Of a stretch of DNA of 64,000 bases, positions 7,719 through 29,397 are shown in pieces (the first letter of the stretch is position 1; the number at the start of each line of letters is the position of its first letter). The stretch covers positions 1-64,000 of the forward strand of contig JAFYWF010000076.1 of the NCBI GenBank assembly GCA_017558145.1, in the 5' to 3' direction. The translations under genes were made by a program, and so were the position numbers. Under the pieces are notes generated by a model. That model was not told the origin of the DNA. It saw only the letters and a program-made list of their open reading frames with translations, and did not search any database. The stretch comes from Lachnospiraceae bacterium (GTDB lineage: Bacteria > Bacillota > Clostridia > Lachnospirales > Lachnospiraceae).

Positions 7719-9899
7719 ATGAAATTGATGAAAAAAATAATTTTAACCGCAGGTGTATTGGTGGCGTTGGCGGTGGCAATGTTGGTTCTTACCCATACTG
7801 CCCAGAATGGGGTAGAGACAACACAAATTCTACCACAAATCAATCCGGATCCTGTGTATGTGGAATGTGAAGAGGGGAAAGAATTAGCAATCTCTCTTGT
7901 TGCAAAAGAAGATTTTCAAATAAGTGGATTTCAGATTTTGGTAGTAAACATTTCCGAGGAAAGTAGAGGAACATTGAGAATTGCTTTAATGGATCAGGAA
8001 TCCAATCTTTTGATGAATCAAATTGTTCCTATTGAAACAGTAACTCCCGGAAAATGGGTTACGATTGCAGGTAATGTAACTTTTACAGCAGGAAATGAGT
8101 ATTTTTTATCCGTATTAGCGGATGAAAGTGAACCGTACTTTATGCAGGTGCCGGAAGGTTGGGGAAAAGAATTACCTTTTGAAGAAACTGTCTGGGAAGA
8201 GGGGCAAGCACTTGCATATGGAATTTCTCTTGGAATCAATCAGGTAGAAGCTACAACAGTTACCTATGGAGATATTTTTTATTATTCCATTCCTACTTGT
8301 ATTTTGGTAGCAGCGATTGCTCTTTTGGGAATTTGGGTTGGATTTGGAAGAATGCTGGAGGGCATAAAAAAAGTTCCTATGAATAGATTCCTTGAAAAAT
8401 ATGGCAATGATTTGTTCTTAATTTTGATATTTGGAGCAGTTTGTGTTAGTATTTATTCTAGAGCTTATTTAAAAGGGGTGTATATTTCCGCAGATTCTAC
8501 CGGATATATGAGAGAGGCCATTAACCTAGTGAACGGAAATGGATTTCAATATGACGGTATGGCAGGATACCAATCCTGGTTTGCGAACTGGCCTATTTTA
8601 TATCCTGTAATGATTGCAGCGGTTATGGCAATTACCAATACCAATGCTTATTTGGCATCTAAGCTGGTGGCAATGTTTGTTGTAGCCTGTATATTGATTT
8701 TGTTTAGAATTTTCTTTAAAAAAGATGCTTGGATTTATGCGTTATGTGTTACCAATATTGGTTTTTTGAATCTTTGTTATTATACCTGGAGTGAAATTCC
8801 ATATATGTTGTTTCAGTTGGGATTTGCTCTTGTTTTAGCAAAAATTATTAAAGAAGAAAAATCTTCTTGTTGGACATATGTAATATTGGCAACTTTTGGT
8901 ATGGGATGTTTCTTAACCAGATATTACGGTATTTATGTGTGGATTGTCACAGGAGTTTATATTCTTGGATTATATTATTTTTATAGAAAAAATAACGAAA
9001 AGGTATTGTTTCATAAAGCTGTGAAATTGACCATTACTGCTTTTGTTTCGGGAAGTTTAAGTGTGGGATATTTAGGGATGAATAAGTTAATGAATGGTAT
9101 GGCATCGGGAGTAAGTCGTACTATGTGGTGGGATGACTATAGAATTCTTACCAATGATTTGATTGAAAGTCTGCTAACAGAATTTTTTAATATCTTTTCC
9201 ATGCAGATACCGGAACTGATTGAAAATTTCCCATTTAACCTTAAGGTATTTGTAGTAGTTCTGATTTTAATTGGTTTTGGCTGGATTGTAATAAAAAACG
9301 CAAAATTGTTTTCCCGAGAAACTGTAATGATAACCATGGCGGTTATGTATTATGTGATTTTTATATGCATCCGCTATGTATCCTCCATGGATAGTTTTTA
9401 TTTTCGATTTTTTGAGCCTGCCACCTTTTTGTTTTGCATTGGTATGATTGAGCTTTTGTTGCCATATTTTAAAGGAAAAAAAGTATTTCATTATTTTGCA
9501 GGAGTAACGGCTACTTTAGTAATTCTTGCAGTCATGTCCGTATATGATAATGGAGGCATGGATCAGGATGATATTTATTATGAGGCTGTAGCAGCGCAAT
9601 GGAATCAGGCCTATGAAGAAATTCCTGAAAAATCGGTTATTATTTTTAATGATATTGATTTCAGAGCCTCCTGGTATCGTCCGGATGTAGTGGATGGAAC
9701 CATTACTCCTCTAGATACTATGGATAGTATTCGAGAAACCTATTATGGTTCAGAATATTTGTGTATCAAGGCAGAATTTGTGGAAACTATGTTGGAATCC
9801 GGAGAGTATGAGCAAAATGTGCATGCATGGTTGGAAGATGGCTTATCTGCTGTTGGACAGGAGTATGAATATGTAGTACTTTCGCTGAATAAAAACTAA
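7719..9899 (+). CDS. GT-C type integral membrane glycosyltransferase (ArnT/PMT-like)
   Basis: A 726-residue membrane protein. A first helix (about 5-22) is followed by a roughly 150-residue beta-rich extracytoplasmic domain, then a helix near 187-207. The multispan core opens with YSRAYLKGVYISADSTGYMREAINL, whose acidic residue in the first external loop is the GT-C hallmark. Several further helices reach about residue 600, and a soluble C-terminal domain (about 610-726) follows. Such enzymes use polyprenyl-phosphate-linked sugars to decorate lipids, polymers or proteins outside the cell. GGAGG lies upstream of ATG 7719. It is the last gene of the run. Its likely original terminator appears to have been split by the neighbouring element. 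Confidence 0.75.
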   Translation: MKLMKKIILTAGVLVALAVAMLVLTHTAQNGVETTQILPQINPDPVYVECEEGKELAISLVAKEDFQISGFQILVVNISEESRGTLRIALMDQESNLLMNQIVPIETVTPGKWVTIAGNVTFTAGNEYFLSVLADESEPYFMQVPEGWGKELPFEETVWEEGQALAYGISLGINQVEATTVTYGDIFYYSIPTCILVAAIALLGIWVGFGRMLEGIKKVPMNRFLEKYGNDLFLILIFGAVCVSIYSRAYLKGVYISADSTGYMREAINLVNGNGFQYDGMAGYQSWFANWPILYPVMIAAVMAITNTNAYLASKLVAMFVVACILILFRIFFKKDAWIYALCVTNIGFLNLCYYTWSEIPYMLFQLGFALVLAKIIKEEKSSCWTYVILATFGMGCFLTRYYGIYVWIVTGVYILGLYYFYRKNNEKVLFHKAVKLTITAFVSGSLSVGYLGMNKLMNGMASGVSRTMWWDDYRILTNDLIESLLTEFFNIFSMQIPELIENFPFNLKVFVVVLILIGFGWIVIKNAKLFSRETVMITMAVMYYVIFICIRYVSSMDSFYFRFFEPATFLFCIGMIELLLPYFKGKKVFHYFAGVTATLVILAVMSVYDNGGMDQDDIYYEAVAAQWNQAYEEIPEKSVIIFNDIDFRASWYRPDVVDGTITPLDTMDSIRETYYGSEYLCIKAEFVETMLESGEYEQNVHAWLEDGLSAVGQEYEYVVLSLNKN

Positions 9900-9912: not shown

Positions 9913-9932
9913 TGTCAAGAAAAAATACTTGA
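9913..9932 (+). repeat. Left junction repeat (candidate attL core)
   Basis: TGTCAAGAAAAAATACTTGA is identical to 29398-29417. The outer flank here is GG, which extends the TGTCAAG arm. The inner flank TGC does not match it as an inverted repeat. Confidence 0.75.
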
Positions 9933-10227: not shown

Positions 10228-10446
10228 ATGTGTAAGGAAAGAGAATTAAGTTTTTCAATTTATATGTTATATAGTCTTGCAGACAGATGGAAGAAATCCC
10301 CGGCATCGGTTTATCAAATCTTAAATTCTACAGGAATTTTGGATGATTACATTATTGCATGTTATGATGTATTGCATACACAGGGAAAGGAGTATCTGAT
10401 CGAAGATATTACAGAATATATAAAGGAAAAAGGAATTAATGTATGA
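10228..10446 (+). CDS. DUF3791 family small protein
   Basis: 72 residues, with the family pattern FSIYMLYSLADRWKKSPASVYQIL, then GILDDYIIACYDVLHTQGKEYLIEDI. It is probably a small helical cytoplasmic protein. GAGGTGA lies 7 nt before ATG 10228. The stop overlaps the ATG of the following DUF3990 gene by 4 nt, implying translational coupling. DUF3791 and DUF3990 genes recur together in gut Firmicutes, which suggests a matched pair, perhaps immunity or antitoxin plus effector. That role is an inference. Confidence 0.75.
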   Translation: MCKERELSFSIYMLYSLADRWKKSPASVYQILNSTGILDDYIIACYDVLHTQGKEYLIEDITEYIKEKGINV

Positions 10447-10922
10447 TTGTTTATCATGGGACAACAGAGATAATAGAAAAGCCTGATGTTAAGCATTCCA
10501 AGAAATATCTTGATTTTGGAAAAGGTTTTTATTTGACCACTTTTGAAGAACAGGCTAAAAAATGGGCTATCCGAAAAGCTATGAGACAAGGGAAAACAGC
10601 TGTTGTTAATAGTTATGAGATGAAGGATAATTTAGAAAAGTATCGGGTATTATCTTTTGCAAAAGAAAATGAAAAATGGTTGGAGTTTGTTTGCGCTTGT
10701 CGAAAAGGGGAATCTTTAAATGCAGATTATGATATCATTATTGGAAGTGTAGCAGATGATGATGTATTCAAGACAGTAGATATGTATTTCAGAGGGTTAT
10801 GGGATAAGAAAAAAGTGCTAGAAGAACTTAGGTATTATAAGATGAATGACCAGATTTGTATTGTGAATCAGAATACTTTAAATGAAATCATTGCTTTTCA
10901 AAAAGCATACGAGGTGAAGTGA
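10443..10922 (+). CDS. DUF3990 family protein, ADP-ribosyltransferase-like
   Basis: 159 residues. VYHGTTEIIEKPD at the N-terminus and LDFGKGFYLTTFEEQAKKWA at about 28-47 match the DUF3990 family, which is grouped with the ADP-ribosyl fold. The His of YHGT and the Tyr of GFYLT would be the first two positions of an H-Y-x type active site. A third catalytic residue cannot be assigned by eye. There is no signal peptide. It is coupled by a 4-nt overlap to the DUF3791 gene upstream, with one base to the small gene downstream. It may be a toxin or a regulatory ADP-ribosyltransferase; activity is unproven. Confidence 0.72.
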   Translation: MIVYHGTTEIIEKPDVKHSKKYLDFGKGFYLTTFEEQAKKWAIRKAMRQGKTAVVNSYEMKDNLEKYRVLSFAKENEKWLEFVCACRKGESLNADYDIIIGSVADDDVFKTVDMYFRGLWDKKKVLEELRYYKMNDQICIVNQNTLNEIIAFQKAYEVK

Positions 10923-12382: not shown

Positions 12383-12418
12383 GATACAATGGGAAAAAAT
12401 AGAGAGGGGATGAATGGG

Positions 12419-13351
12419 ATGAAAAAATATGTATTTGGAGTTGATGTAGGCGGAACAGCAATAAAGTTAGGTTTTTTTACTGTTGAAGGTGAACTTCTTG
12501 AAAAATGGGAAATTCCAACAAGAACAGAAAATAATTCTGAAAATGTTCTTCCCGATATTGCAGAAGCAATTGAAAACAAGTTAAAAGAAAAAGCGATTGA
12601 AAAAGAAGAGGTTTCTGGAGTTGGATTTGGTGTTCCTGGTCCTGTTACTAAAGAGGGAATAATTCAAATGAATGCAAATCTTGGCTGGAGAAATAAACAT
12701 GTATCAAAAGAACTCGGGGAATTAACAGGACTTCCATGTAAGGGTGGTAATGATGTTAAAACAGCTGGACTAGGGGAAATGTGGAAAGGTGGAGCTGCAG
12801 AATATGATAATGCCGTGTTTATTACTTTAGGAACAGGAGTTGCAGCTGCTATTATTGTAGAAGGAAAGGTTATCTTAGGGGCCATGGGTGCCGCAGGGGA
12901 AATTGGCCATATCAAAGTTAACATGGAAGAAACAAATGCATGTGGTTGTGGAGGAGTAGGTTGTGCAGAACAGTATGCATCTGGTCCTGGTTTAGTAAGA
13001 ATGGCTAAGAAAAAATTAGAAGAAAGTGATAAAGCATCTATGCTTCGTTATGATGAAATTACAGCTAAAACTGTATTTGATGCATACAAAGTAGGAGATG
13101 AATTAGCAACAGAAGTTGTAGAAGAATTTGGCCATTATTTAGGTTACTCATTAGCTGCGACAGCTGCAGTAGTAGATCCAGAAGCATTTATCATTGGTGG
13201 TGGTGTTTCTAAAGCTGGTGATGAGTTAGTAAAAGTTGTTCAAAAATATTACAAACAGTATGTATGGCCAGGCTGCCGTAATAAAGAATTTGTTCTTGCA
13301 AAATTAGGAAATGATGCTGGAATTTATGGTGCAGCTAGCTATGTTCTTTAA
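12419..13351 (+). CDS. ROK family sugar kinase (glucokinase-like)
   Basis: Phosphorylates a hexose (probably glucose or a related sugar) with ATP in the cytoplasm. FGVDVGGTAIKLGFF is the N-terminal phosphate motif. GVGFGVPGPV and ITLGTGVAAAIIVEG follow. The ROK zinc motif CGCGGVGCAEQ is near residue 174, and IGGGVSKAGDEL is C-terminal. There is no N-terminal helix-turn-helix, so it is a kinase rather than a ROK repressor. The start at 12419 is chosen because GAGGGGATG precedes it. It is monocistronic, with its own promoter and terminator, next to the fucoside cluster, so it may act on glucose or galactose released from host-type glycans. Confidence 0.85.
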   Translation: MKKYVFGVDVGGTAIKLGFFTVEGELLEKWEIPTRTENNSENVLPDIAEAIENKLKEKAIEKEEVSGVGFGVPGPVTKEGIIQMNANLGWRNKHVSKELGELTGLPCKGGNDVKTAGLGEMWKGGAAEYDNAVFITLGTGVAAAIIVEGKVILGAMGAAGEIGHIKVNMEETNACGCGGVGCAEQYASGPGLVRMAKKKLEESDKASMLRYDEITAKTVFDAYKVGDELATEVVEEFGHYLGYSLAATAAVVDPEAFIIGGGVSKAGDELVKVVQKYYKQYVWPGCRNKEFVLAKLGNDAGIYGAASYVL

Positions 13352-13381
13352 TTAAAATATATAAACTAGTATTGAAAAGTT

Positions 13382-13450
13382 TAGTAGTTCTGCTTTAAGA
13401 GATATTTATAAATATCTCTTAAAGCAGGTAACTATTAGGCTTTTTTTTGT
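13382..13450 (+). terminator. Long-stem terminator after the ROK gene
   Basis: An 18-bp perfect stem (13390-13407 with 13410-13427) extends outward through TAGTAGTT/AACTATTA with a small bulge. TTTTTTTT follows at 13441-13448. Confidence 0.8.
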
Positions 13451-13488
13451 AAAAAAATTAGTAAATGAATAATAAGTTTTTGGCAAAA

Positions 13489-13504
13489 TAAGTAAATATA
13501 GTCC
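13489..13504. promoter_or_regulatory. Candidate regulator site, copy 1 (upstream of the sensor kinase)
   Basis: TAAGTAAATATAGTCC shares AAGTAAATATA(G/A)TCC with 17293-17308, which lies upstream of the main solute-binding protein gene. Possibly bound by the AraC-type regulator of this cluster. Confidence 0.3.
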
Positions 13505-13577
13505 GTGTTATGATTGATATAATCCTATAAATAAAAGATAGAATTATGATAAAATCAATAAAATGGGTGGAGTATAT

Positions 13578-15293
13578 ATGAAAACAAGAATAAAAAAATA
13601 TATAGAAAACAATATATGGGGTTCATTAAAAAAACCGTTACCAATCCGTAAGCAACTTTCAAGGATGATAACTTTATGTTGTGTTATTGTAGTTTGTATT
13701 CAAGCAGTTGTCATGATTGCAATGGCCATGAATCAGTATGTGACAAGAGAAAGAGAAGATACTTTGTATATATTGGAAAGTGATAATACTAGGATTGACA
13801 ATATTTTTCAATATATTGGTGAAATTGCTTTATCAATTCAACATAGTATGGCCTTGCGAAATTTTTTTAATAATGGTGCATATGACGAAGAGGTTATGAT
13901 TCAAGAATTAAAAAGTGTTTCAAATCTTTTTTCAGAAAGAAATTTGTTAGATGCGTTTGAACCTGTTGTAGAAAAAATTTATTTATATAATGAAGCTGAT
14001 AAAGCTATTTGTAACTTATATTATCCAGTAACTATTTCTGAAAGAAAACAATCTCAGGAGAAAATTGATGAATTATATAGGTTATATAAAAAATCAAAGC
14101 AAGAATTTTATTTTCAAGTGGAAGAGAAATGTCTGAATTTTTGTATGAACTTGTATGATTCGGAAATGAAAAAGTTAGGTACTTGTATTTTTGTAATAAA
14201 TAAATTTGGAATAGAAGATAATTATTCTAATTTAAAAAAAATGAAAAAACCATATTGGATTATAGAACAAAATGAGCAACTAATTTTGGGGGAAGAAAGT
14301 AGTTCTCAGTATGAATATAACAAAGTATTGGAACATAAAATGTCGACTGCGTTTGGGTTGATTCTTAAAGCCGGGGTTTCAAAATCTAATATTTATAAAT
14401 CATTGGTAGTTACTATATTTAGTATATTATTGATTTCATGTATATTAATGGTACTTTTGTCTTTAATGGGGAAAATAGTAGCAATCAATTATGTCCGACC
14501 ATTAGAAACAATTGCAGAAAAAATGAAACTAGTAGGAAAAGGGAACTTTGATGCTAAGTTAGGTAAGTATAAAGTAGAAGAGTTGCAAAATATCAGTAAT
14601 ACATTTAATGAAATGACGGATCATATTACCTATTTAGTGGAGGAAGTGTATGAAACTCAATTAATAGCACAGCAGTTACAGATTCAATATCTTCAAGCAC
14701 AGATGAATCCACACTTTATGTTTAATGTTTTAACTATGATTGAGATGAAAGCTGCCATGAATAAAGATAAAGAAGTTCAGGAAATGTTGTACAAATTGGC
14801 AGGAATATATCAAGGTAAAATTTTTAGAAAAGATGAGCATTTTATTTATCTGAATGAGGAGATGGAAATCGTAGATTTTTACTTATCACTACAAAATAGT
14901 CGTTTTGGAGATAAAATTACATACTCTATTGAATATTCGGGTGGAAAAGACGCTTATGAGAATTTAAAGGTTCCTAGATTGAGTATTGAACCAATTGTTG
15001 AAAATGCAGTATGTCATGGGTTAGAACCGAAAGAAGAAAAAGGTCATATATGGATTAAAATATCCAAAACTGACACAACTTTGAATGTTTGCATAGAGGA
15101 CAATGGGGTGGGTTTTGAATCAGAACAAATTGTAGAGAAGAAAGAGGATAAAAATCATACTCATGTAGGACTTTGGAACACAAATAAAATGATTCACAAT
15201 TTATGTGGACAGGAATATGGATTGGATATTACAAGTAAGATCGGAAAAGGGACAAAAGTTTGTATTTTTTTACCTGTAAGAAATGGAGAGTAG
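13578..15293 (+). CDS. YesM-type sensor histidine kinase
   Basis: 571 residues. One helix lies at about 28-50 and a second at about 275-300, with a large extracytoplasmic sensor between them. HAMP follows (about 300-350), then the His_kinase domain with QYLQAQMNPHFMFNVL (phospho-acceptor His near 377) and an HATPase domain (IVENAVCHGLEPKEEKGHI as N box, EDNGVG as G1). This class pairs with AraC-type response regulators controlling carbohydrate ABC importers. The start at 13578 is chosen because GGTGGAG sits 6 nt upstream; an in-frame ATG at 13563 precedes that site. The response regulator begins right after the stop, and a solute-binding lipoprotein follows in the same operon. Confidence 0.9.
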   Translation: MKTRIKKYIENNIWGSLKKPLPIRKQLSRMITLCCVIVVCIQAVVMIAMAMNQYVTREREDTLYILESDNTRIDNIFQYIGEIALSIQHSMALRNFFNNGAYDEEVMIQELKSVSNLFSERNLLDAFEPVVEKIYLYNEADKAICNLYYPVTISERKQSQEKIDELYRLYKKSKQEFYFQVEEKCLNFCMNLYDSEMKKLGTCIFVINKFGIEDNYSNLKKMKKPYWIIEQNEQLILGEESSSQYEYNKVLEHKMSTAFGLILKAGVSKSNIYKSLVVTIFSILLISCILMVLLSLMGKIVAINYVRPLETIAEKMKLVGKGNFDAKLGKYKVEELQNISNTFNEMTDHITYLVEEVYETQLIAQQLQIQYLQAQMNPHFMFNVLTMIEMKAAMNKDKEVQEMLYKLAGIYQGKIFRKDEHFIYLNEEMEIVDFYLSLQNSRFGDKITYSIEYSGGKDAYENLKVPRLSIEPIVENAVCHGLEPKEEKGHIWIKISKTDTTLNVCIEDNGVGFESEQIVEKKEDKNHTHVGLWNTNKMIHNLCGQEYGLDITSKIGKGTKVCIFLPVRNGE

Positions 15294-15294
15294 C

Positions 15295-16056
15295 ATGTGG
15301 AATGTAATGATTGCTGATGACGAAAATTATATGTTAGAAGCAATGGCTAATTTAATTGATTGGAAGAAAATGGATTGCCAATTAGTTTTTAAAGCTAAAA
15401 ATGGTCAAATGCTTTTAGAACAAATAAAGGAAAATCCACCAGATATTATAATTACAGATATTAAGATGCCATTAGTTAGTGGTATTGATGTGGCCAAATA
15501 TATTTATGAAAATGAGTTACCAATTAAGGTTATTATCCTTTCTGCCTATGCAGATTTTTCATATGCACAAGAGGCAATAAAATATGATGTATGTGGTTAC
15601 CTTATCAAAACATCAGTAATAGAGATGTTACCGGCAATGATAGATAAAGCAATTAAGCAATTATCAGGTAGGTTAGATAATAAGGAAAGTGAAGAGAAAT
15701 ATTCTGATGATTTGTTAGGACGGTTGCAAAAATATATAGCAGATCATTATACTGATAAAGTAAGTTTGGGACAGATAGCGCAAGCTATTCACGCTAATGG
15801 TAGTTATTTAAGTAGACTTTATAAAAGTAGGACAGGACAGAATTTATTTGATGTTATTAATAAAATGAAATTGGACAAAGCAAAAGAGTATATGAATCAA
15901 GGATATCGAATTTATGAGGTAGCACAAAAAGTAGGCTTTGAAGATGTGTCTTATTTTTCAAGAGTTTTTCGAAAACATGAAGGATGTTCTCCAAGAGAAT
16001 ATGAGAATAAATTAAGAGAAGAGAAACAAATACAAAATGAAGATAACAAACATTAA
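15295..16056 (+). CDS. YesN-like response regulator, receiver plus AraC-type DNA-binding domain
   Basis: The receiver domain (about 1-120) has acidic residues ADDE near the start, the phospho-acceptor Asp near 55 (IIITDIKMP), and LSAYADFSYAQEAI then YLIKTS for the conserved Lys. The C-terminal AraC domain (about 145-245) has two helix-turn-helix units, ending VGFEDVSYFSRVFRKHEGCSPREY. At 253 residues it is shorter than many YesN proteins because it lacks the long middle domain. ATG 15295 is preferred, with GGAG of the kinase tail as its ribosome site; an earlier ATG overlaps the kinase by 11 nt. It probably activates the ABC-fucosidase genes downstream. Confidence 0.9.
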   Translation: MWNVMIADDENYMLEAMANLIDWKKMDCQLVFKAKNGQMLLEQIKENPPDIIITDIKMPLVSGIDVAKYIYENELPIKVIILSAYADFSYAQEAIKYDVCGYLIKTSVIEMLPAMIDKAIKQLSGRLDNKESEEKYSDDLLGRLQKYIADHYTDKVSLGQIAQAIHANGSYLSRLYKSRTGQNLFDVINKMKLDKAKEYMNQGYRIYEVAQKVGFEDVSYFSRVFRKHEGCSPREYENKLREEKQIQNEDNKH

Positions 16057-17266
16057 AATTATTATAATTATTTGTTTTTGTTGTATCATATCAGGATGTT
16101 CTAATCCAAAAGAAGAAATAGTAGAGCTTACGATGATACATGGCTGGGGCAGCACAGAAAAAGATCATATAATTATGCGACAAATATATGAAGATTTTGA
16201 AAAAGAATATCCTAATATTCGTTTGAATTTGGTATCTATGCCGTCTTCTTCTGATGTAGTGAACAAAGTAGGGGATTTATTAACCATTGGAGAAATACCA
16301 GATATTGTTTTTACCGGGGGAGATGGAAAAGAATCTATTTATGAATTCATGGTAAAAAAAGGATATGCTTTAAATTTAATGCCTTATATTCAAGCTGATG
16401 AAGAATTTGTAAAGAATGTATCAGATGTAATTTTGGAAAATTGGACTACAAAAGATGGAGCTTTATATACCGTTTCAGATGTACTTTTGATGGGAGGATA
16501 TTGGTATAACAAAGAGATATTTAATGAAGCTGGTATAACTGAAGTACCAAAAACATGGGATGATTGGATAAAGGCTTGTGATAAAATCAAGAAGATGAAT
16601 TCTGAAATTGCGCCGGTTATTTTAGATGGAAATCATATGGCATATCTTATGACTTCCATTTTAGCAGACGAGAATTTAGTAGAATTAGAAAATATTAAAG
16701 CATCGAAGATTAATGTTAATTCTATCGCTTTTGATAATATGCTGGTACAAATAAAAGAAATATCCGAGTATGCAATTTTAGCAGGAAATTATAATTATAG
16801 AGATACACTTGATAGTTTCAATAAAGGGCAGAGTGCAATATATATCAATGGTGTATGGGCTAATTCCATGATTGATAAAGAACTTTCAGTGTCATATGCA
16901 TCATTTCCATCTAAAGATGGTAACGGAATAGGAACAATGTCTGCTTGTGTAGGTTATATTTTAGGGAATACTGGTGATGAAAAGAGAATGGAAGCAAGTG
17001 TTAAATTCCTAAAATATATGTTGAGCGAAGAAACTGCAAAAAAAATATTAGAGCAGACAGGACAAATCCCATCAAATCCTAATATTGAAATTACAGAACA
17101 AAGTTGCGGAACAAGGATGAATCAAGCTGTAGAGAGTATTAAAAATGCAGGTTTGATTATAGAGATACCAAATAATTTATGGAATCCAAATGAAAAAGAA
17201 GAATATACTGAAAATATACTTTTGTTCTTGCAAAATAAAATTACAGAAGAAGAATTTCGCAAGTGA
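16037..17266 (+). CDS. Extracellular sugar-binding lipoprotein, family 1 (cluster copy 1)
   Basis: 409 residues with a lipoprotein signal and lipobox IISGC (Cys21). The body is a family 1 solute-binding protein (MIHGWGSTEKDHIIMRQIYEDFEKEYPNIRLNLV, later DSFNKGQSAIYINGVWANSM and PSNPN). It overlaps the regulator gene by 20 nt, so it is translated from the same mRNA as the kinase and regulator. A separate binding-protein gene with its own leader precedes the permeases. This copy may therefore serve mainly as ligand presenter to the YesM-like sensor, or may share the permease. Confidence 0.85.
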   Translation: MKITNIKIIIIICFCCIISGCSNPKEEIVELTMIHGWGSTEKDHIIMRQIYEDFEKEYPNIRLNLVSMPSSSDVVNKVGDLLTIGEIPDIVFTGGDGKESIYEFMVKKGYALNLMPYIQADEEFVKNVSDVILENWTTKDGALYTVSDVLLMGGYWYNKEIFNEAGITEVPKTWDDWIKACDKIKKMNSEIAPVILDGNHMAYLMTSILADENLVELENIKASKINVNSIAFDNMLVQIKEISEYAILAGNYNYRDTLDSFNKGQSAIYINGVWANSMIDKELSVSYASFPSKDGNGIGTMSACVGYILGNTGDEKRMEASVKFLKYMLSEETAKKILEQTGQIPSNPNIEITEQSCGTRMNQAVESIKNAGLIIEIPNNLWNPNEKEEYTENILLFLQNKITEEEFRK

Positions 17267-17292
17267 TTGTCATGGATGTAATATTTATACAA

Positions 17293-17308
17293 AAAGTAAA
17301 TATAATCC
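17293..17308. promoter_or_regulatory. Candidate regulator site, copy 2 (upstream of the main binding protein)
   Basis: AAAGTAAATATAATCC matches the site at 13489-13504 with one difference in the 15-base core. It lies about 125 bp before the gene, a usual distance for an AraC-type activator. Confidence 0.3.
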
Positions 17309-17431
17309 AATAAAGGTGTAAATAAAATTCGATTTTGTGTAAATGAAATCTATTCATAGTTTAAGCCTCTCATGAGATAATTTGATAGAAGTCAGACAGA
17401 CTAAAAAATTATTTCATTGGGAGGTTTTTAC

Positions 17432-18754
17432 ATGAAAAAGAAATTAATTTCTATGGTATTAGCTTTAACCTTAGTAGCAGGAATGTTAACAGGTTGTGGC
17501 GGTGCTAAAGAAGAAACACCAGCTGCAGATAATGCAGCAACAGAAGCTCCTGCAGAAGAAGCAGAAGCTACAGGAGATCAAGAAGTATTAAAATTCTATC
17601 ATGCATATTTCCATGAAGAATCCGAATGGCCAGTAGCGGCAGTGATGAGAGACATTTATCAGCAGTTTGCAGATGCACACGCAGATGGTCCTGTTGTATT
17701 TGAACCAGTAGTTGTAGAAGATGTGTTACAGGTTGCTACAAATGAAATTGCTGGTGGTGAATTCCCAGATATGGTAGATTTTGCTGGTAATGAAGTACCA
17801 TTAGCAGCTATCGTTCAGGAATTAGTAGTTGATTTAAAACCATATATTGATGCTGAAGGTCTTCAGAGCAAAGTTGGTATCAACTATACAATGAATGATG
17901 TTGATGGAAAAGTTTACACAGTACATGATCAGTTAACAACTTTAGGTCTTTGGTACAATGCGGACCTTTATGAAGCAGCTGGAGCAGCTACACCAGATCA
18001 GTGGGCTACATATGAAGATATGGCAACTGCTATGGAAGCATTAAGAGCAAGTGGTGTATATGGATATAATGCAGGACAGGGTTCTGAACGTTTATTCAAC
18101 TCTTATATGGCAGTATTAGATGCAGAAGCTATGGCAAACCCATTAACTCCAGAAGTTATCAATTCAGAAGCTTTTGTTACAGCATTTAAAACAGTAGCTG
18201 CTATGGATCAGGCTAATGGTTCTGCTCACTCTACAAACAATGCTGGAGACTTTGGCGCAGATTTTACAGAAGGTAAATGTGCAACATGGATGAACGGTGT
18301 TTGGGCTGCAGGAAGCTTTAATGGTCTTGAAGCAAATATTTTACCAGGTATCTATCCATGCAGTGGTGCAATCGCAGCTACAGGTGGCGGATTAACAATT
18401 TCTGCTTCTTTATCTGACGCTCAGAAAGAATTAGCATTAGAATTCTTAAAATACATGACAAGTGACGAAGTACAGACAAGAATTTTCTTAGAAGTAAATG
18501 CAAACCCATGTAACCAGGATCTTGACTTAGAAGCTCTTGCAGAAGGCGTTGATAACCCTACAGTTAAATTATTAGCTCAGGCTTGTTCTTTAGCAAACAG
18601 TGCAGATTCTATTACAACTAATACAGGTTCTGCTTGGGGTGCAGATGTATACACTGCTATTATTAACAAATTGATTGAATGTTCTGTAGAAGGAACAGAT
18701 ATTGATGCAAAATTAGCAGAATTACAGTCTGAATTAATCGCTTTAATTGGCTAA
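17432..18754 (+). CDS. Extracellular sugar-binding lipoprotein, family 1 (main ABC binding protein)
   Basis: 440 residues with signal peptide and lipobox MLTGC (Cys22), then an Ala/Glu/Thr-rich linker and a family 1 solute-binding fold (YTVHDQLTTLGLWYNADLYEAAGAATPDQW; CATWMNGVWAAGSF). GGGAGG lies 7 nt before ATG 17432. Codon use here is smoother (many GCA, GAA, TTA) than in copy 1, which suggests high expression. A terminator separates it from the two permease genes, the usual way of making more binding protein than channel. It likely binds fucosylated oligosaccharides, judged from the GH29 gene downstream. Confidence 0.9.
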   Translation: MKKKLISMVLALTLVAGMLTGCGGAKEETPAADNAATEAPAEEAEATGDQEVLKFYHAYFHEESEWPVAAVMRDIYQQFADAHADGPVVFEPVVVEDVLQVATNEIAGGEFPDMVDFAGNEVPLAAIVQELVVDLKPYIDAEGLQSKVGINYTMNDVDGKVYTVHDQLTTLGLWYNADLYEAAGAATPDQWATYEDMATAMEALRASGVYGYNAGQGSERLFNSYMAVLDAEAMANPLTPEVINSEAFVTAFKTVAAMDQANGSAHSTNNAGDFGADFTEGKCATWMNGVWAAGSFNGLEANILPGIYPCSGAIAATGGGLTISASLSDAQKELALEFLKYMTSDEVQTRIFLEVNANPCNQDLDLEALAEGVDNPTVKLLAQACSLANSADSITTNTGSAWGADVYTAIINKLIECSVEGTDIDAKLAELQSELIALIG

Positions 18755-18762
18755 TTAGTAAT

Positions 18763-18800
18763 AAAGCCTGTTTTTCTCACAAGAGAAGAACAGGCTTTTT
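18763..18800 (+). terminator. Intercistronic terminator/attenuator between binding protein and permeases
   Basis: AAAGCCTG...CAGGCTTT with further pairing through TTCTC/GAGAA, then TTTTT. It is probably leaky, since the permeases show no separate strong promoter. Confidence 0.85.
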
Positions 18801-18852
18801 GTTCGATTTTAATTATTTTAGGATATAAAATAATGAGAGGAAAGGGTATAAG

Positions 18853-19764
18853 ATGAATAAAAAATCTAATAGAACAATTTTTATGACATTGTTTTTATTG
18901 CCTTCCTGTTTATGTTTCCTGATTTTCTATGCTTATCCTATTTTGCAGATTCTCGTAACATCTTTTTGTAAATGGGATTATACAAATTTGAAAAATCCAA
19001 CATTCTTCCCAGCGGGAGAATTATTGACTAACTATCAATATATTTTGACTCAGTATCCATATTTTTGGGAAGCTTTGCGTAACTCACTTTGCTGGGCACT
19101 GGTAGGTGTAGTAATTCAGGTACCATTAACACTGGTAGTAGCTATTGTAATTTCTAAGGGGTTAAAATTTTCTAAGTTTGCAAGAAACGTATACATTGTA
19201 CCAAGTGTAATTTCTTCAGCAGCTATGGGTCTTGTATTCTTACAGTTATACAATGCAAGATATGGTCCTATTCAGCAGATTATTCAAAAATTTAATCCTG
19301 AGTTTAAAGATAGTATTTTATTAGTAGAAGGTGCAAACTTCTGGGCAATCGTATGTGCATATGTATTTTTCTGCGGTACTACAGCTATTATGTTGTTAGG
19401 TCAGATTCATGGTATTGCACCAGAATTGTATGAAGCAGCTAAAATCGATGGAGCTACCGGGTTAAAGAGAGAATTATATGTTACTATTCCATTGGTTAAA
19501 CCAACAATAAAAACAGTAACAACTATGGCAGCAACTTCAGGTTTCTTACTTTACAATGAAGTGTTTTTCTTGACCAATGGTGCAGCTGGAACAAAATCTA
19601 TCAGTTTTATCATCAGAGAATTAGCAATTACAAGTAGTAGAACCCAGTATGCCAGAGCAAATACGATTGGTGCAATTCAGATTGTAATCGGTTTAATTTT
19701 AGTAGGAGTGATTAATATTATTTTCTCTGAATCAAAAGTAAGTCAGAAAGGAGGAAAAGCATAA
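18853..19764 (+). CDS. Sugar ABC transporter permease (MalF/UgpA type)
   Basis: 303 residues with about six membrane helices. The inner-membrane component MSD signature (EAA loop) reads YEAAKIDGATGLKRELYVTIPLVKP near residues 195-220. GAGAGGAAAGGG precedes ATG 18853. The stop codon shares one base with the start of the next permease (TAATG), so the two are coupled. No ATPase gene is in the cluster; importers of this CUT1 type commonly use a shared MsmX/MalK-like ATPase coded elsewhere. Confidence 0.93.
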   Translation: MNKKSNRTIFMTLFLLPSCLCFLIFYAYPILQILVTSFCKWDYTNLKNPTFFPAGELLTNYQYILTQYPYFWEALRNSLCWALVGVVIQVPLTLVVAIVISKGLKFSKFARNVYIVPSVISSAAMGLVFLQLYNARYGPIQQIIQKFNPEFKDSILLVEGANFWAIVCAYVFFCGTTAIMLLGQIHGIAPELYEAAKIDGATGLKRELYVTIPLVKPTIKTVTTMAATSGFLLYNEVFFLTNGAAGTKSISFIIRELAITSSRTQYARANTIGAIQIVIGLILVGVINIIFSESKVSQKGGKA

Positions 19765-20621
19765 TGGCAAAAGAAAAAATTAAAGAAAGTAACCCTATGA
19801 GCGTGCAAAAAGGGGAAGCAGTCTTTTGTTATATTGTAATGGCGATTATTTGTATCATCGCTTTATTCCCAATTATCTGGGTTTTTATTTCCTCATTTAA
19901 AGCTGATTTGTTGGCAGAACCAGGATTTACACTTCCAAGTAAACTTTGCTTTGACGGATATATTAGAGTATTTACGAAACTTGGTATTAGTAAATATTTT
20001 GTGAATAGTTTTATTACAGCAACAGGTGGTACTTTACTTAGTATTACAATGTTATCTATGTCTGCATATATTATTGCAAGATTCAAATTTAAAGGAAAAG
20101 GGCTGATTACAGCTTGCTTTATGGCAACTATGTTCGTTCCTTCTTCAGCATTAACATTCCCTGTTTATAACTTGATCAAAAATATGGGATTATTTGATAC
20201 GAGAGTAGGTTTGATATTTGTATATGCTTGTAGTGGTATTGCTGTAAGTTTCATGGTAATTAGAAACTATTTTGCTACAATTCCAGTTGAATTAGAAGAA
20301 GCAGCAAGAATTGATGGATGTACTTATTTCCAGACATTTGTAAAAATTATGCTTCCTATTGCAAGACCAGGTATCTTTACTGCTGCAGTATTGGCATGGT
20401 TAAATCTGTGGAATGAATTCTATTGGGCTTCCTTACTTATGATTGACAGAAGTAAGATGACAGTACCGGCAATTCTTTCTCAGTTTACTACAAGTTTTGG
20501 AACAGATTATAATGGTTTGCTTTCTGCAGTTGTTGTAACTATTATACCACCAGTATTGTTATTTACTTTTGCTAGTAAATACTTTATTGAAGCATTATCT
20601 GGTGGTGCGGTAAAAGGTTAA
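19764..20621 (+). CDS. Sugar ABC transporter permease (MalG/UgpE type)
   Basis: 285 residues, six predicted helices, with the EAA loop LEEAARIDGCTYFQTFVKIMLPIARPG near 175-200. It pairs with the previous permease in a CUT1-type importer. The ribosome site AGGAGGAAAAG is just inside the end of the upstream gene. The oxidoreductase follows 9 nt after its stop. Confidence 0.93.
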   Translation: MAKEKIKESNPMSVQKGEAVFCYIVMAIICIIALFPIIWVFISSFKADLLAEPGFTLPSKLCFDGYIRVFTKLGISKYFVNSFITATGGTLLSITMLSMSAYIIARFKFKGKGLITACFMATMFVPSSALTFPVYNLIKNMGLFDTRVGLIFVYACSGIAVSFMVIRNYFATIPVELEEAARIDGCTYFQTFVKIMLPIARPGIFTAAVLAWLNLWNEFYWASLLMIDRSKMTVPAILSQFTTSFGTDYNGLLSAVVVTIIPPVLLFTFASKYFIEALSGGAVKG

Positions 20622-20630
20622 GGAGGCAAT

Positions 20631-21887
20631 ATGAAAAAAAAATCAAAAAAAGTAACCGCTATTCTTTTAGGTGCGGGACACAGAGGTGCAGATGCATATG
20701 CTTCCTATGCATTACAGTATCCAGAAGAATTAACTTTTGTGGGAGTAGCTGAACCTAGAAAAGAACGCCGTGAGGAATTTCAGAAAGCCCACAATATAGA
20801 AGATAAATATGCAGTGGAAAGCTGGGAAGAATTGTTAGCGTTTCCTAAATTAGCAGATTTAGTATTGATTTGTACACAAGACCATATGCATATGGAACCA
20901 ATGGCAAAAGCTATGGAACTTGGATATGATATCTTAGTGGAAAAACCTATTAGTCCAGTAAAAGAAGAATTAGTTGATTTGAAAGAAAAAACGGAAAAGT
21001 ATGAAGGAATGATTAGCGTATGTCACGTTCTTCGTTATTCTCCATTCTTCCGTAAAATCAAAGAAATTATTGATGCAGGAACTATTGGTGAATTGATGAA
21101 TATCCAGCATATGGAAAGTATTGGTTTTTGGCATATGGCACATAGTTTTGTAAGAGGTAACTGGAGAAACACAGAAGAAAGTTCTCCAATCTGTCTTGCT
21201 AAAACATGTCATGACTTTGATATTTTATTATGGCTTACTGGAAAGAAATGCTTACGTGTATCTAGTTTTGGTAGCTTAAAGCTTTTCCGTGAAGAAATGG
21301 CTCCAGTCGGTGCACCAAAAAGATGTACAGATGGATGTCCTCACAGAAGTACATGTCCTTTCTTTGCTCCTAAGTTTTATTTAGAACATCCAAAAGCTAT
21401 TGTAGATGGTTTCAGAAAAGTAGTTACTATGGATGAAACTACAGAAGGCTTAATGGAAGCATTAAAAACAGGACCATATGGAAGATGTGTATATGCTTGT
21501 GATAATGATGTATGTGATCATCAGGTTGTAAATATGGAAATGGAAGGTGGACTTACAATTAGCTTTACCTTAAGTGCATTTACAAATGAATGTGAAAGAA
21601 TCATTACATTACAGGGTAGCCGTGGAGAAATTAAAGGATGGATGGAAGAAGATAAGATTGTTGTTACAGACTTTGTAACAGGTAATCAGACTGTTCATAA
21701 ATTAAATACTCCAAAAGTAGGACATAGTGGTAGTGATGCTTCTATGATGCAAGAATTAGTTTCCTTAATTGCAACAGGACGTCAGAAAGAAAACGTAAGT
21801 AATGCTACACAGGCAATTGATAGTCATTTGATTGCATTTGCAGCAGAAGAAAGTCGTTTAGCAAATGGAAAAGTAATTGAATTATAA
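20631..21887 (+). CDS. Gfo/Idh/MocA family oxidoreductase with Cys-rich insertion
   Basis: 418 residues. The Rossmann motif AILLGAGHRGADAY is N-terminal, and LVEKPISPVKEEL holds the family EKP signature with the catalytic Lys. The substrate domain carries a Cys-rich insert (RCTDGCPHRSTCPF near 227, then GRCVYACDNDVCDH near 285) that probably binds a metal. Such enzymes oxidise sugars or derivatives with NAD(P). Placed between the importer and a fucosidase, it may oxidise fucose or the sugar left after cleavage; no fucose isomerase, kinase or aldolase is nearby. AAGGAGG precedes the start. Confidence 0.85.
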   Translation: MKKKSKKVTAILLGAGHRGADAYASYALQYPEELTFVGVAEPRKERREEFQKAHNIEDKYAVESWEELLAFPKLADLVLICTQDHMHMEPMAKAMELGYDILVEKPISPVKEELVDLKEKTEKYEGMISVCHVLRYSPFFRKIKEIIDAGTIGELMNIQHMESIGFWHMAHSFVRGNWRNTEESSPICLAKTCHDFDILLWLTGKKCLRVSSFGSLKLFREEMAPVGAPKRCTDGCPHRSTCPFFAPKFYLEHPKAIVDGFRKVVTMDETTEGLMEALKTGPYGRCVYACDNDVCDHQVVNMEMEGGLTISFTLSAFTNECERIITLQGSRGEIKGWMEEDKIVVTDFVTGNQTVHKLNTPKVGHSGSDASMMQELVSLIATGRQKENVSNATQAIDSHLIAFAAEESRLANGKVIEL

Positions 21888-21909
21888 TACTGAAAATAGA
21901 GGAAATAAT

Positions 21910-23220
21910 ATGTCAAGAATGGATGAAATTAGAAATAGAACAAAGTGGTGGCAGAATGACCGCTTTGGTATGTTTATCCACTGGGGATTGTATTCTATAC
22001 CTGCTTGTGGAGAGTGGATGATGTCAGAAAAAGAAATGACAGTTGAAGAATACAAAAAGTACTTTGATTTGTTTGACCCTGTTGATTACGATCCTAAAAA
22101 GTGGGTAAAAGCAGCGAAAAGAGCAGGCATGAAATACATGGTGCTTACTGCAAAACATCATGATGGTTTCTGTTTGTTTGATTCTGCTTATACAGATTAT
22201 AAATCTACCAACACAAAAGCTGGAAGAGATTTAGTGAGAGAGTTTGTAGATGCTTGTAGAGAAGAAGAAATTAAAGTTGGTCTTTATTTCTCCATTATCG
22301 ACTGGTCACATCCAGATTTTCCAAAGTATGGTGATAAACAGCATCCAATGCGTAATAATGAAGCTTATAAAGATGAAAAGATTGATTTTGATAATTATCT
22401 TGAGTACATGCATAATCAGGTAAAAGAAATTGTTACTGGTTATGGAAAGTTAGATTTATTATGGTTTGACTTCTCTTATGATGATATGGTAGGAGAAAAA
22501 TGGAAAGCCACTGAATTAATTACTATGGTTAGAAAGTATCAGCCAGATGTTATTATTGATAACCGTTTGGAAGGTGCAGGAGATAATCATGGTAGCTTAA
22601 TTAGTGGAGAACCAACTATTTATAGTGGTGATTTTGTAAGTCCAGAACAGATTATTCCACCTGAAGGAGTTGTAGATGTTCATGGAAACCCAGTACCTTG
22701 GGAATTATGTGCTACTATGAATAACCACTGGTGCTATTGCAATTTCGACCATGAATACAAAACATCTAAGATGTTGATTCGTAAATTGGTTGAATGTGTA
22801 AGTAAAGGTGGAAACTTCCTTTTGAATGTAGGACCTGACGCAAAAGGAAATATGCCAAAAGAAAGTTTGGCTATCTTAGAAGAAATTGGACAGTGGATGG
22901 ATAAGAACTCTGAAAGTATTTATGGATGTGGAATCTGTGAACTTCCAAAGCCAGAATGGGGTAGATATACTCAAAAAGGCGATATTATCTACGCTCATGT
23001 ATTTGAAACTCCATTAGGAGCACTTCCATTAACTGGAATTGGTCCAGATCGTTTGGATAAAGTTTACTATGTTTCTGATGGTACTGAAATGAACCGTGGA
23101 GAAGCATGGAATACAGTTCTTTTCACAGATGCAGCATTTGTATCATTTGGGGATAACCCAGTATTTACATATGGTTTACCTGATGATAAAGATACTGTTT
23201 TAAAAGTAGTATTAAAATAA
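21910..23220 (+). CDS. GH29 family alpha-L-fucosidase, cytoplasmic
   Basis: 436 residues. RTKWWQNDRFGMFIHWGLYSIPACGEWMM and YMVLTAKHHDGFCLFDS are GH29 hallmarks. LDLLWFDFSYDD near 180-192 carries the expected nucleophile Asp of WFD. There is no signal peptide, so it acts inside the cell on imported oligosaccharides. ATG 21910 is chosen because GAGGAAATAAT lies directly upstream; an earlier in-frame ATG at 21877 overlaps the oxidoreductase. The product ends just after the catalytic and a short C-terminal region, without carbohydrate-binding modules. It is the last gene of the transport operon, with a terminator after it. Confidence 0.92.
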   Translation: MSRMDEIRNRTKWWQNDRFGMFIHWGLYSIPACGEWMMSEKEMTVEEYKKYFDLFDPVDYDPKKWVKAAKRAGMKYMVLTAKHHDGFCLFDSAYTDYKSTNTKAGRDLVREFVDACREEEIKVGLYFSIIDWSHPDFPKYGDKQHPMRNNEAYKDEKIDFDNYLEYMHNQVKEIVTGYGKLDLLWFDFSYDDMVGEKWKATELITMVRKYQPDVIIDNRLEGAGDNHGSLISGEPTIYSGDFVSPEQIIPPEGVVDVHGNPVPWELCATMNNHWCYCNFDHEYKTSKMLIRKLVECVSKGGNFLLNVGPDAKGNMPKESLAILEEIGQWMDKNSESIYGCGICELPKPEWGRYTQKGDIIYAHVFETPLGALPLTGIGPDRLDKVYYVSDGTEMNRGEAWNTVLFTDAAFVSFGDNPVFTYGLPDDKDTVLKVVLK

Positions 23221-23339: not shown

Positions 23340-24092
23340 ATGACAGTAAATGAATTTTGGAATGGAATTAATTTACAAGAAAAGCAAAAAGAAGCTGTAT
23401 TAAAAAAGAATTTTGCTAAAGATGAATGTAATCATTTATGTGATTTATATAAGGAAAATCATAATCGTTTTTTTGAACAAATCTTGAATAAGGAAGATAA
23501 TGAACTTTGGTTTTTATGGTTGTATAGTCAAATGGCATGCAAGGTTTATGATTTGTATATAGAGGCAAATATTTCAGATAAAGTTTTTTGGGACACTTTT
23601 ATAGATATTCGTTTGTGGTGCGAGAATGCTGAAAAAGAGTATGGTGTTCTTGGAATAAAAGAATATGAATGGTTTTATAGACATATTGATATGGTATTAT
23701 TTCGTTTTGGCAGATTGCAATTTGAAGATACTGGAACGGAAATTAATATTCATATTCCACAAGGAGCTCCACTAATATGGGAAGACTGCGAGAAGTCGAT
23801 AAAAATGGCAAGGGATTATTGGGGGAATGATAAAACTTTTGTTTGCCATTCTTGGCTTTTATATCCAGGATTAGAAGAGCTATTAGACGAAAATTCCAAT
23901 ATTAAACAATTTAGAAAAAGATTTCATGTTATTAAAACAGATTATAATGAAAGAGAAGCAGAATGGCGTATTTTTGGTGAGGTTAAGAAAAATGTAACTG
24001 AATATCCAGAAAATACTATGTTGCAAAAAAAGGTAAAAAATTATTTGCTTAATGGAAAGTGTTTAGGAAATGGCTATGCCATATTAAAGTAG
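23340..24092 (+). CDS. Acyltransferase-like protein with GNAT_C type domain
   Basis: 250 residues. The C-terminal half (INIHIPQGAPLIWEDCEKSIKMARDYW... FVCHSWLLYPGLEELLDENSNIKQFRKRF... EAEWRIFG) matches a family usually annotated as acyltransferase domain-containing (NAT_N/GNAT_C) in Firmicutes. The N-terminal half is helical and Trp-rich. No signal or membrane segment. GAGGATG precedes the start. It lies after the fucosidase terminator, so it is probably expressed separately from the AT-rich gap. Substrate unknown; acylation of a sugar is possible given its neighbours. Confidence 0.65.
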   Translation: MTVNEFWNGINLQEKQKEAVLKKNFAKDECNHLCDLYKENHNRFFEQILNKEDNELWFLWLYSQMACKVYDLYIEANISDKVFWDTFIDIRLWCENAEKEYGVLGIKEYEWFYRHIDMVLFRFGRLQFEDTGTEINIHIPQGAPLIWEDCEKSIKMARDYWGNDKTFVCHSWLLYPGLEELLDENSNIKQFRKRFHVIKTDYNEREAEWRIFGEVKKNVTEYPENTMLQKKVKNYLLNGKCLGNGYAILK

Positions 24093-24207: not shown

Positions 24208-25914
24208 ATGAAAAAATTGACGAGGTACATGAAAGATAAATCTGTTAAGTTGAAACTAGATTTTTTGGTTAAAGTAAGTACTTGTTTATTATTTTTACTT
24301 GGTCTAGGTGCTTTGTTTGGAGCTTGGCAGTTGAATCAGGAAACAAAAGAGTTGAATGAAAGATGGATTAATGCGAATAATATGATAGCAGATTTGGATA
24401 ATTTAACAGCTTCTGTTAGATTAGAACAATATGCTCATGTTCTTTCAGATTCTAGAATAGAATTTGAGATACATGAAAATTCCATCAATAAATTAGTGGA
24501 AGAAATAGAGGGGTTAATTTCAGAATATGGTTCTTTAGTATCTAATGAAGAAGAAAGACAATATTATGATATGGCTTGTAGTGCATGGGATAATTATATG
24601 CAAGTAACAGGTGATGAGTTTATTTCATTAAGTCGTACTTTAAAAGTAGATGAAGCAAACGCTATAATGCTTGGAAAAGGGCTTGACTCTTTTACAGAAT
24701 TTCAGGAACAGTTTGATCTTTTAGTAGAGTACAATCGTGTAGGAGCCCAAAAAGCTGGTGAACTTGCAAATGTGGTTTTTTATGTGGTATGTATTTTAGT
24801 AGCTTTTTTAGTGGTAATAGCAACCGTAATTTCTAAAAATGTTGCAAAAACAATTATTAAAAGTATTACAAAACCTGTAGATGAATTAAAACATGCAGCA
24901 GCAGAAATGACTCAGGGAAGATTAAATGCAGAAATCGATTACGAATCTAAAGATGAATTAGGTTCTCTTGCTGATTCCATTCGTGAAGTACAAGTTACAT
25001 TGGGAGAATATGTTAAAGAAATATCAGAAACATTGGAAGTAATTGCCGGTGGAGATTTAACTAAAGATTTTAATCTTATTACAGAGTTTAAGGGAGAGTT
25101 TTACACTATCAAAACCTCTTTTGTTCAAATTTTGAAAGAATTTAATAATTCACTTGAAAAAATTAAAGAAGGTATCATGGATGTAGATCATAGTTCAGAA
25201 GAAATAGCTAGTGCTGCACAAGAACTTGCTACTGGAACTGGAGAACAAGCGAGTGCAGTAGAAGAATTAACAGCAACAATTGCATCAGTTAATCACATGG
25301 CTATAGAATCTGCAAAAGCAGCTAGTGAAGCAGCTCAAAAAGCTGCAGAATCTGTAAAAGATGCAGAAAGTGAAAGAATGCATATGGAAGAACTTCAAGA
25401 TGAAATGATTCGCATTAAAGAGATATCCGGTGAAATAGAAAAAATTGTTACAAGTATTGAAGAAATTGCATCACAGACAAGTCTTCTTTCTTTAAATGCG
25501 TCGATAGAAGCTGCAAGGGCAGGAGAAGCAGGAAGAGGTTTTGCAGTAGTAGCAGACCAGATAGGGAAATTAGCAACAGATTCTGCGCAAGCTGTAGTAA
25601 ATACAAAAGAATTGATTGCTAAGACAGTTGAAGCGGTAGATAAAGGTAGTGGCATGACAGAAACAGCAGCAGAAGGGTTCAGAAGAATTATTGGAGAGTT
25701 GGAAGGTTTTGCACAAATGGCTTATAGTGTAAGTGAGTCAGCTACTGCACAGGCAGGTGCTTTAGGACAAGTTGAAGATGGAATTGAACAAATTTCTGAA
25801 GTAACACGACAGAATGCGGCATCTAGTGAGGAGTGTTCTGCAATTAGTGAGGAATTAGCAGAAAAAGCTAGTAGAATGGCAAATCAAATTCAGAATTTTA
25901 AATTACATCAGTAA
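24208..25914 (+). CDS. Methyl-accepting chemotaxis protein
   Basis: 568 residues. Helices at about 20-42 and 188-212 bracket a four-helix-bundle ligand domain. A HAMP domain, apparently doubled (about 212-310), leads to the signalling coiled coil. The conserved hairpin tip [39 protein letters not shown] is near 415-455. No C-terminal pentapeptide for CheR tethering is seen. GAGAGGG lies upstream of ATG 24208. As cargo beside a sugar importer it may steer cells toward the same glycans. No flagellar or che genes occur in this window, so its partners are elsewhere. Confidence 0.9.
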
Positions 25915-29290: not shown

Positions 29291-29397
29291 TCGTGGTGAA
29301 TGATGCATAATGGTGCAACTTATAATTTTAAAGAAACCTAGAGAAAATGCAGTAATAATCAATGGTGTACAATAGTGGATAAAAAAATATTTCACCC

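Follow-up and report, generated by a model that had tools for sequence, protein, structure and literature searches.

The window analysed here comprises 64,000 nucleotides of a contig (JAFYWF010000076.1) from a Lachnospiraceae bacterium, and the block at 13563–23220 on its plus strand is a real operon for the sensing, import and de-fucosylation of host-type sugars. It begins with a YesM-type sensor histidine kinase (13563–15293; PF06580, 6e-21, and PF02518, HATPase_c), whose orthologue is also the first cassette gene in three relatives (G003, G004 and G005) and in other genera. This is followed by a YesN-type response regulator with receiver and AraC HTH domains (15283–16056; PF00072, PF12833), the substrate-binding lipoproteins SBP1 (16037–17266; PF01547/PF13416, SBP_bac_1/8, lipobox ISGC) and SBP2 (17417–18754 with a likely ATG at 17432; PF13416, SBP_bac_1/8, lipobox LTGC), two CUT1 permeases (18853–19764 and 19764–20621; both PF00528, BPD_transp_1), a Gfo/Idh-fold oxidoreductase that is a candidate NAD-dependent glycosidase (20631–21887; PF01408 and C-terminal domains) and a cytoplasmic GH29 alpha-L-fucosidase (21910–23220, ORF from 21877). 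No ATPase gene was found within the block; CUT1 systems usually have none in their own locus. Promoter scans gave results at chance level. The Pfam and NCBIfam assignments confirmed, gene by gene, the content listed in an earlier sequence-only reading, and its idea of a self-contained unit for fucosylated host-type glycans is supported as far as sensing, import and de-fucosylation are concerned, with the substrate being a prediction.

A GNAT-type N-acyltransferase with NAT_N and GNAT_C domains (23340–24092, plus strand; PF18082/PF18164) also belongs to the unit, because it is kept beside the cassette within the genus and beside the Gfo/Idh gene in other genera. It adjoins either the cassette or the Gfo/Idh gene at L067, L068, L070, L194, L196, L202, L203 and in Streptomyces (L157). 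Its sequence link to teicoplanin-type N-acyltransferases is weak, and its predicted structure was unusable (pLDDT 41). The methyl-accepting chemotaxis protein encoded further downstream (24208–25914, plus strand) is linked to the cassette only in the window genome (G000) and G005. On the other side lies a ROK kinase (12389–13351; PF00480) which scored above the curated cut-off of the ROK glucokinase model TIGR00744 and occurs genus-wide, as does the cassette. The earlier observation that a ROK kinase stands beside the cassette holds, but the gene is unlinked to it and was rejected as a member of the unit, since it resides on contigs without the cassette in four relatives.

The GH29 protein contains the catalytic domain (PF01120, E 1.5e-94) and matches the fucosidase iso1 of Paenibacillus thiaminolyticus (6gn6) with 59% identity over 417 aligned residues (E 1e-177), as expected of a GH29-A member. 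Its residues D187 (WFD) and E246 (SPE), which we take to be the catalytic Asp and the acid/base Glu, are located in motifs aligned with those of 6gn6. Starting from the likely ATG at 21910, the protein has 436 amino acids, the same length as its orthologues, which are 83–97% identical within the genus, and no signal peptide was recognised by eye. Judging from a characterised relative, the enzyme probably prefers alpha-1,2 linkages: ATCC_03833 of R. gnavus, a relative of 6gn6, favours this linkage (PMC7872956). All three enzymes are of the GH29-A type, the natural substrate of the one encoded in the window being a predicted one.

The cassette is common to most of the genus and not freshly acquired: it was present in five of seven genus genomes (split in G006) and decayed in one relative, and its divergence within the genus is similar to that of core genes. 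Other genera, as well as a Clostridium, share the gene order HK-RR-SBP1-SBP2-perm-perm-GH29-Gfo/Idh, and homologous cassettes of other genera and Streptomyces adjoin genes for the blood-group A/B endo-galactosidase GH98 (L196, L198, L195), GH36 (L194, L196, L197), GH2 (after the Gfo/Idh gene at L115) or GH4. The Streptomyces locus L157 combines GH98, GH36, GH29, permeases, Gfo/Idh and GNAT, and within the genus, G006 carries GH98 beside HK-RR-SBP1 and GH95 beside GH29. Five of 299 family genomes contain GH98, and four of these five are among the seven best of 298 Gfo/Idh carriers (p = 5e-7). For some members of the Gfo/Idh clade (L200, L201, L203–L206), no GH29 gene was present within the 20 kb examined. 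A second cassette of the window genome has GH29 followed by a GH4 alpha-galactosidase (NCBIfam above cut-off); in G233, two GH98 genes come after its homologue. GH98 is absent from the window, and neither GH98 nor GH95 was found in the 88% complete window genome. Because no GH98 gene lies beside the window cassette, the link to blood-group A/B-type substrates rests on the relatives.

The sequence-only reading had regarded the block as mobile cargo. Exact 20-bp direct repeats (TGTCAAGAAAAAATACTTGA, plus strand) delimit an interval of 19.5 kb that includes the cassette; their left copy (9913–9932) may be an att site, and their right copy (29398–29417) is the core of an element that relatives conserve upstream of ylxM. 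The homology of relatives resumes at 29396–29398, a tyrosine recombinase domain (28512–29144, plus strand; PF00589) is situated 254 bp inside the right repeat, and G006 has the genes for RACo, a UvrD-like protein and YlxM contiguous without the block. However, the recombinase is not intact, consisting only of a catalytic domain of 210 amino acids with stops upstream and lacking the N-terminal domain, and the cassette and the ROK gene occur genus-wide with identities at the level of core genes. Plasmids yielded no near match, with all GH29 homologues there below 60% identity, and viral contigs yielded no match. Carriage on a known plasmid or phage was rejected on these grounds. Mobility is thus possible in view of the repeats and the truncated integrase but unproven, and we consider it unlikely that the block was recently acquired as cargo of a 19.5-kb element integrated at the ylxM upstream site.

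The block contains no isomerase, kinase or aldolase for fucose, as had been noted before, yet the presumed lack of an isomerase fails at the genome level: the window genome encodes an L-fucose isomerase (FucI) on a different contig. This is a contig-end fragment with 96% identity to the FucI of G003, which scores above the NCBIfam cut-off. FucI is present in all five genus members with the cassette and in neither of the two without it, and at L146 its gene directly follows GH29. In the relative G003, a Pdu-type locus additionally encodes an FGGY kinase and a class II aldolase; the incomplete (88%) window genome yielded no fuculose-phosphate aldolase. Other loci of the genome would thus supply the fucose route that the block lacks, and the argument that fucose is oxidised by the Gfo/Idh enzyme for want of an isomerase falls. 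The other proposal of that reading, namely that the glycan remainder serves as food, is plausible.

The Gfo/Idh protein appears closer to an NAD-dependent enzyme that would cleave sugars of blood-group-type glycans than to a fucose oxidase. The residues K105, E162, H194, H365 and C232/C236/C242/C286 are invariant in 42 of 42 homologues, as are H, G and D of the GHxGxD loop containing H365, which is missing from 12 other Gfo/Idh paralogues of the genus. K105 and H194 align with the EKP and EKCCH motifs of the GH188 enzyme 8qc2, as counterparts of the Lys–His pair placed at the C3 hydroxyl, and the loop histidine may be likened to the acid/base His of a GGHGG-like motif, the equivalence beyond about residue 212 being one of motif likeness without superposition. 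The residues described for GH188 are Lys107, His193 and His321 (PMC10755693). A structure model built from three sequences (mean pLDDT 74) showed the Gfo/Idh fold with an NAD site, which dehydrogenases share; NAD-dependent GH188 glycosidases ranked best (Z 35; 8qc6, rmsd 3.1, 339 aligned), but true dehydrogenases followed at Z 32–34, so the ranking is not decisive. The sequence match to 8qc2 (only 1.3e-12) likewise stands amid dehydrogenases, and no GH109 entry was recognised among the best 60 of 74 sequence matches or among the fold matches listed. The protein shares the fold, the EKP lysine, the KxCH histidine and, by motif likeness, a loop histidine with glycines with GH188 and GH109 (PMC10755693), whereas it falls into a different clade, with A/Q in place of the GH188 Glu189 in a phmmer alignment, and carries an extra four-Cys insert; its glycosidase activity is a candidate one. 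RgNanOx from the nan cluster of R. gnavus (PMC4988440) is likewise a Gfo/Idh protein in a host-glycan import operon with a binding protein and two permeases, but that cluster is devoted to sialic acid derivatives and contains GH33 instead of GH29.

Sugar dehydrogenases with a Gfo/Idh fold do exist, and the missing isomerase, kinase and aldolase in the block would suit a dehydrogenase that passes L-fucose (or galactose) into a non-phosphorylating route. This is nevertheless very unlikely, given that FucI co-occurs with the cassette, that the block offers no lactonase or dehydratase partner and that ordinary paralogues lack the GHxGxD loop. A glycoside 3-dehydrogenase supplying a 3-keto intermediate to a separate lyase is still quite improbable: the fold is common to DgpA-type enzymes, and the NCBIfam models of the BT_2158/BT_2159 3-dehydrogenases match weakly below their cut-offs, but neither the window cassette nor the neighbours examined contained a partner eliminase or a xylose-isomerase-like enzyme. 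As for the substrate, the lack of GH98 and GH36 in the window, the GH2 gene at L115 and the failure to detect a GH95 fucosidase in the genome would fit a scavenger of milk or mucin oligosaccharides whose substrate is not an A/B-type trisaccharide but a fucosyllactose or a fucosyl-GlcNAc disaccharide. Sister cassettes repeatedly include GH98, GH36 or GH4, which makes this reading less likely than not.

The best explanation as a whole, to which we give about an even chance, is a sugar-responsive operon which imports fucosylated host-type oligosaccharides, removes fucose by GH29 and employs the Gfo/Idh protein as an NAD-glycosidase on the remainder, likely with an A/B-type substrate. Read from gene content, conservation, genomic partners, FucI and residue motifs, the regulation, the direction of the chemistry and the substrate would be as follows. 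An extracellular sugar would be sensed by the histidine kinase and AraC-type regulator, and the intact oligosaccharide would be imported via the two lipoproteins and the permease pair, energised by an ATPase from elsewhere in the genome. GH29 would cut off L-fucose in the cytoplasm, probably from an alpha-1,2 linkage, and the fucose would enter the FucI isomerase route encoded elsewhere. The Gfo/Idh enzyme would most likely act on the other sugar by the NAD-dependent, redox-neutral chemistry of GH109 and GH188, taking the role that GH36 or GH4 plays in sister cassettes. Among substrate classes, fucosylated galactosides liberated by other bacteria that are identical or similar to the blood-group A/B trisaccharide would be the likeliest. 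Counting against this explanation, GH29 cluster 3 enzymes are weak on natural substrates (PMC11189522).

In the pneumococcal type-2 fucose operon, GH29, GH36 and GH98 accompany an ABC importer. The importer and fucosidase of a GH98 A/B trisaccharide locus are present in the window, which differs from such loci in lacking GH98 and GH36 and in containing Gfo/Idh and GNAT. The pneumococcal operon and the GH98 operon of R. gnavus (PMC8730463) resemble the window in their fucosidases and their relation to fucosylated A/B-type host glycans, and an oxidoreductase is not mentioned in the text of the R. gnavus paper. In the part of the literature covered, no paper connected this Gfo/Idh or this GNAT protein with GH98 loci. 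A more far-reaching and rather unlikely version is that the Gfo/Idh clade represents an undescribed NAD-dependent glycosidase family with a Cys4 insert, perhaps metal-binding, which removes alpha-GalNAc or alpha-Gal from imported blood-group A/B-type trisaccharides; the organism would then possess two parallel NAD-glycosidase cassettes, GH29 with Gfo/Idh in the window and GH29 with the GH4 alpha-galactosidase at the second locus.

Blood-group-type glycans influence which gut bacteria are able to feed in a given host. If the Gfo/Idh protein is an NAD-dependent glycosidase, a widespread and so far unassigned clade of gut enzymes would gain a testable function, with a possible use in the conversion of blood-group antigens.

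All genes named in the sequence-only reading are present and had been correctly identified. The cassette (13563-23220) comprises a YesM-type histidine kinase (HK), a YesN-type response regulator (RR), two substrate-binding lipoproteins (SBP1 and SBP2), both with lipoboxes, a CUT1 permease pair, a Gfo/Idh-fold oxidoreductase gene (20631-21887) and a cytoplasmic GH29 fucosidase gene (likely start 21910, end 23220). No signal peptide was seen in GH29 or Gfo/Idh, and no ATPase gene lies within the block. The ROK kinase gene placed beside the block does occur there (12389-13351) and matches a glucokinase model above the cut-off, but it does not belong to the unit because its orthologues (79-86% identical) reside on cassette-free contigs in four relatives. 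Judging from relatives, a GNAT-type acyltransferase gene (23340-24092) is a member of the unit, because it follows GH29 in three genus genomes (G003, G004, G005) and adjoins Gfo/Idh in other genera; the sole solved-structure relatives found for it are glycopeptide N-acyltransferases. A chemoreceptor (MCP) gene (24208-25914) adjoins the cassette here and likewise in G005.

The window represents contig C35 of a genome of 2.88 Mb in 120 contigs (88% complete), and the cassette occurs in five of the seven genus genomes, the GH29 proteins of the four relatives carrying it being 83-97% identical to that of the window. In genome G001, a remnant (L071, contig C33, 14873-16497) is a fossil of the decayed cassette, in which a deletion joins HK residues 1-186 to Gfo/Idh residues 173-418 and GH29 carries an internal deletion, and no cassette was found in G002. 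The cassette of G006 is spread over two contigs, one with HK-RR-SBP1 next to restriction-modification genes and GH98, the other with SBP2-permeases-Gfo/Idh-GH29 next to GH95, and was apparently split by the restriction-modification genes. On the first of these contigs, an NgoFVII-like restriction endonuclease and a C5 cytosine methylase gene (L242, contig C65, 3975-6256) separate SBP1 from a very large GH98 gene. The chromosomal neighbours of the cassette differ in every genus genome, and the block shared with G005 extends from HK through GNAT to MCP and stops at window position 25916. This distribution fits an ancient genus trait which has since been rearranged and lost.

That the cluster is mobile cargo, as proposed, is possible. 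The sequence TGTCAAGAAAAAATACTTGA occurs in two exact direct copies (9913-9932 and 29398-29417) bounding a 19.5-kb interval which holds the cassette. No other 20-mer in 3.9-31.5 kb recurs at a distance of more than 5 kb, and among 100 base-shuffled sequences a single one contained any such repeat. The right copy corresponds to an element that is conserved ahead of ylxM in four relatives, in three of which homology to the window picks up again at 29396-29398. The catalytic domain of a tyrosine recombinase that has lost its N-terminal part lies 254 bp inward of the right repeat. The repeats and the recombinase remnant lend some support to the idea of an integrated interval that has decayed, but genes found genus-wide are part of its cargo and no cassette copies were seen on the plasmids or viral contigs searched. 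A recent transfer of the cassette is no more than a possibility. Further genes in this region are a DUF3990 gene (ADP-ribosyltransferase-like; 10443-10922) within the interval, a DUF932 gene (27372-28304) adjoining the truncated integrase, and an ORF of 726 aa without Pfam match (7719-9899), ending 14 bp short of the left repeat.

GH98 is an endo-beta-galactosidase family of blood-group antigens. Outside the genus, cassette homologues are accompanied by GH98 (loci L195, L196, L198), GH36 (L194, L196, L197) or GH2 (L115), and a Streptomyces locus (L157) combines GH98, GH36, GH29, permeases, Gfo/Idh and GNAT in one stretch. GH98 is rare (5/299 family genomes), and four of these five genomes are among the seven closest Gfo/Idh carriers (hypergeometric p = 5e-7, which is indicative as the top seven were picked after the ranking was seen; p = 0.002 with all 44 carriers). 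The window genome contains a second, GH29-led cassette on contigs C41 and C120 (L073, L072), which overlap at 93.6% identity and represent either two copies or two strains. It holds a GH4 alpha-galactosidase scoring above its own NCBIfam cut-off, and two GH98 genes come after its homologue in genome G233. Because GH98, GH36 and GH4 partners recur in homologous cassettes, A/B-type trisaccharides stand out as the likeliest single class of substrate. They are probably set free by other organisms; searches of the window genome found neither GH98 nor GH95. Fucosyllactose-like sugars are the main alternative. The window GH29 shares 59% identity with 6gn6, a relative of which, R. gnavus ATCC_03833, prefers alpha-1,2 linkages (PMC7872956), although enzymes in the same network cluster are weak on natural substrates (PMC11189522).

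It had been argued that fucose may be oxidised by the Gfo/Idh enzyme for want of an isomerase. This argument fails because L-fucose isomerase (FucI) is encoded at the end of contig C11 of the window genome, co-occurs with the cassette (5/5 cassette-bearing vs. 0/2 cassette-free genus genomes; Fisher p = 0.048, every genome being incomplete) and directly follows GH29 in locus L146. In G003, fucI neighbours an AraC regulator and a CUT2-type sugar importer, and a class II aldolase, an FGGY kinase and Pdu-type genes are grouped as expected for a fucose-to-propanediol route. An aldolase was not found in the incomplete window genome.

By sequence, the Gfo/Idh protein gave weak, general Gfo/Idh matches to solved structures, GH188 among them. 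Its model, built from three sequences (mean pLDDT 74), ranked NAD-dependent GH188 glycosidases top (Z 35), with dehydrogenases close behind (Z 32-34); therefore, this ranking is by itself no proof of a glycosidase. GH188 uses Lys107, His193 and His321, the two histidines corresponding to His259 and His404 of GH109 (PMC10755693). Across 42 homologues of the window protein, its residues K105, H194 and H365 (GHxGxD loop) are invariant, whereas the loop is missing from 12 further Gfo/Idh paralogues in the genus. C232, C236, C242 and C286, associated with an insert of low model confidence (residues 232-297), are also invariant, and their conservation suggests that they may bind metal. In sister cassettes, GH36 or GH4 could cover the same step, the attack on the sugar beside fucose. 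Because of the conserved K105/H194/H365 pattern, the GH188-like ranking and these counterparts, an NAD-dependent glycosidase seems to us more likely than a fucose dehydrogenase, the main alternative being a 3-dehydrogenase; that it represents a new NAD-dependent glycosidase family acting on A/B antigens is a speculative and rather unlikely proposition. The cassette is an ordinary kind of host-glycan operon with an interesting, testable but unassigned enzyme.
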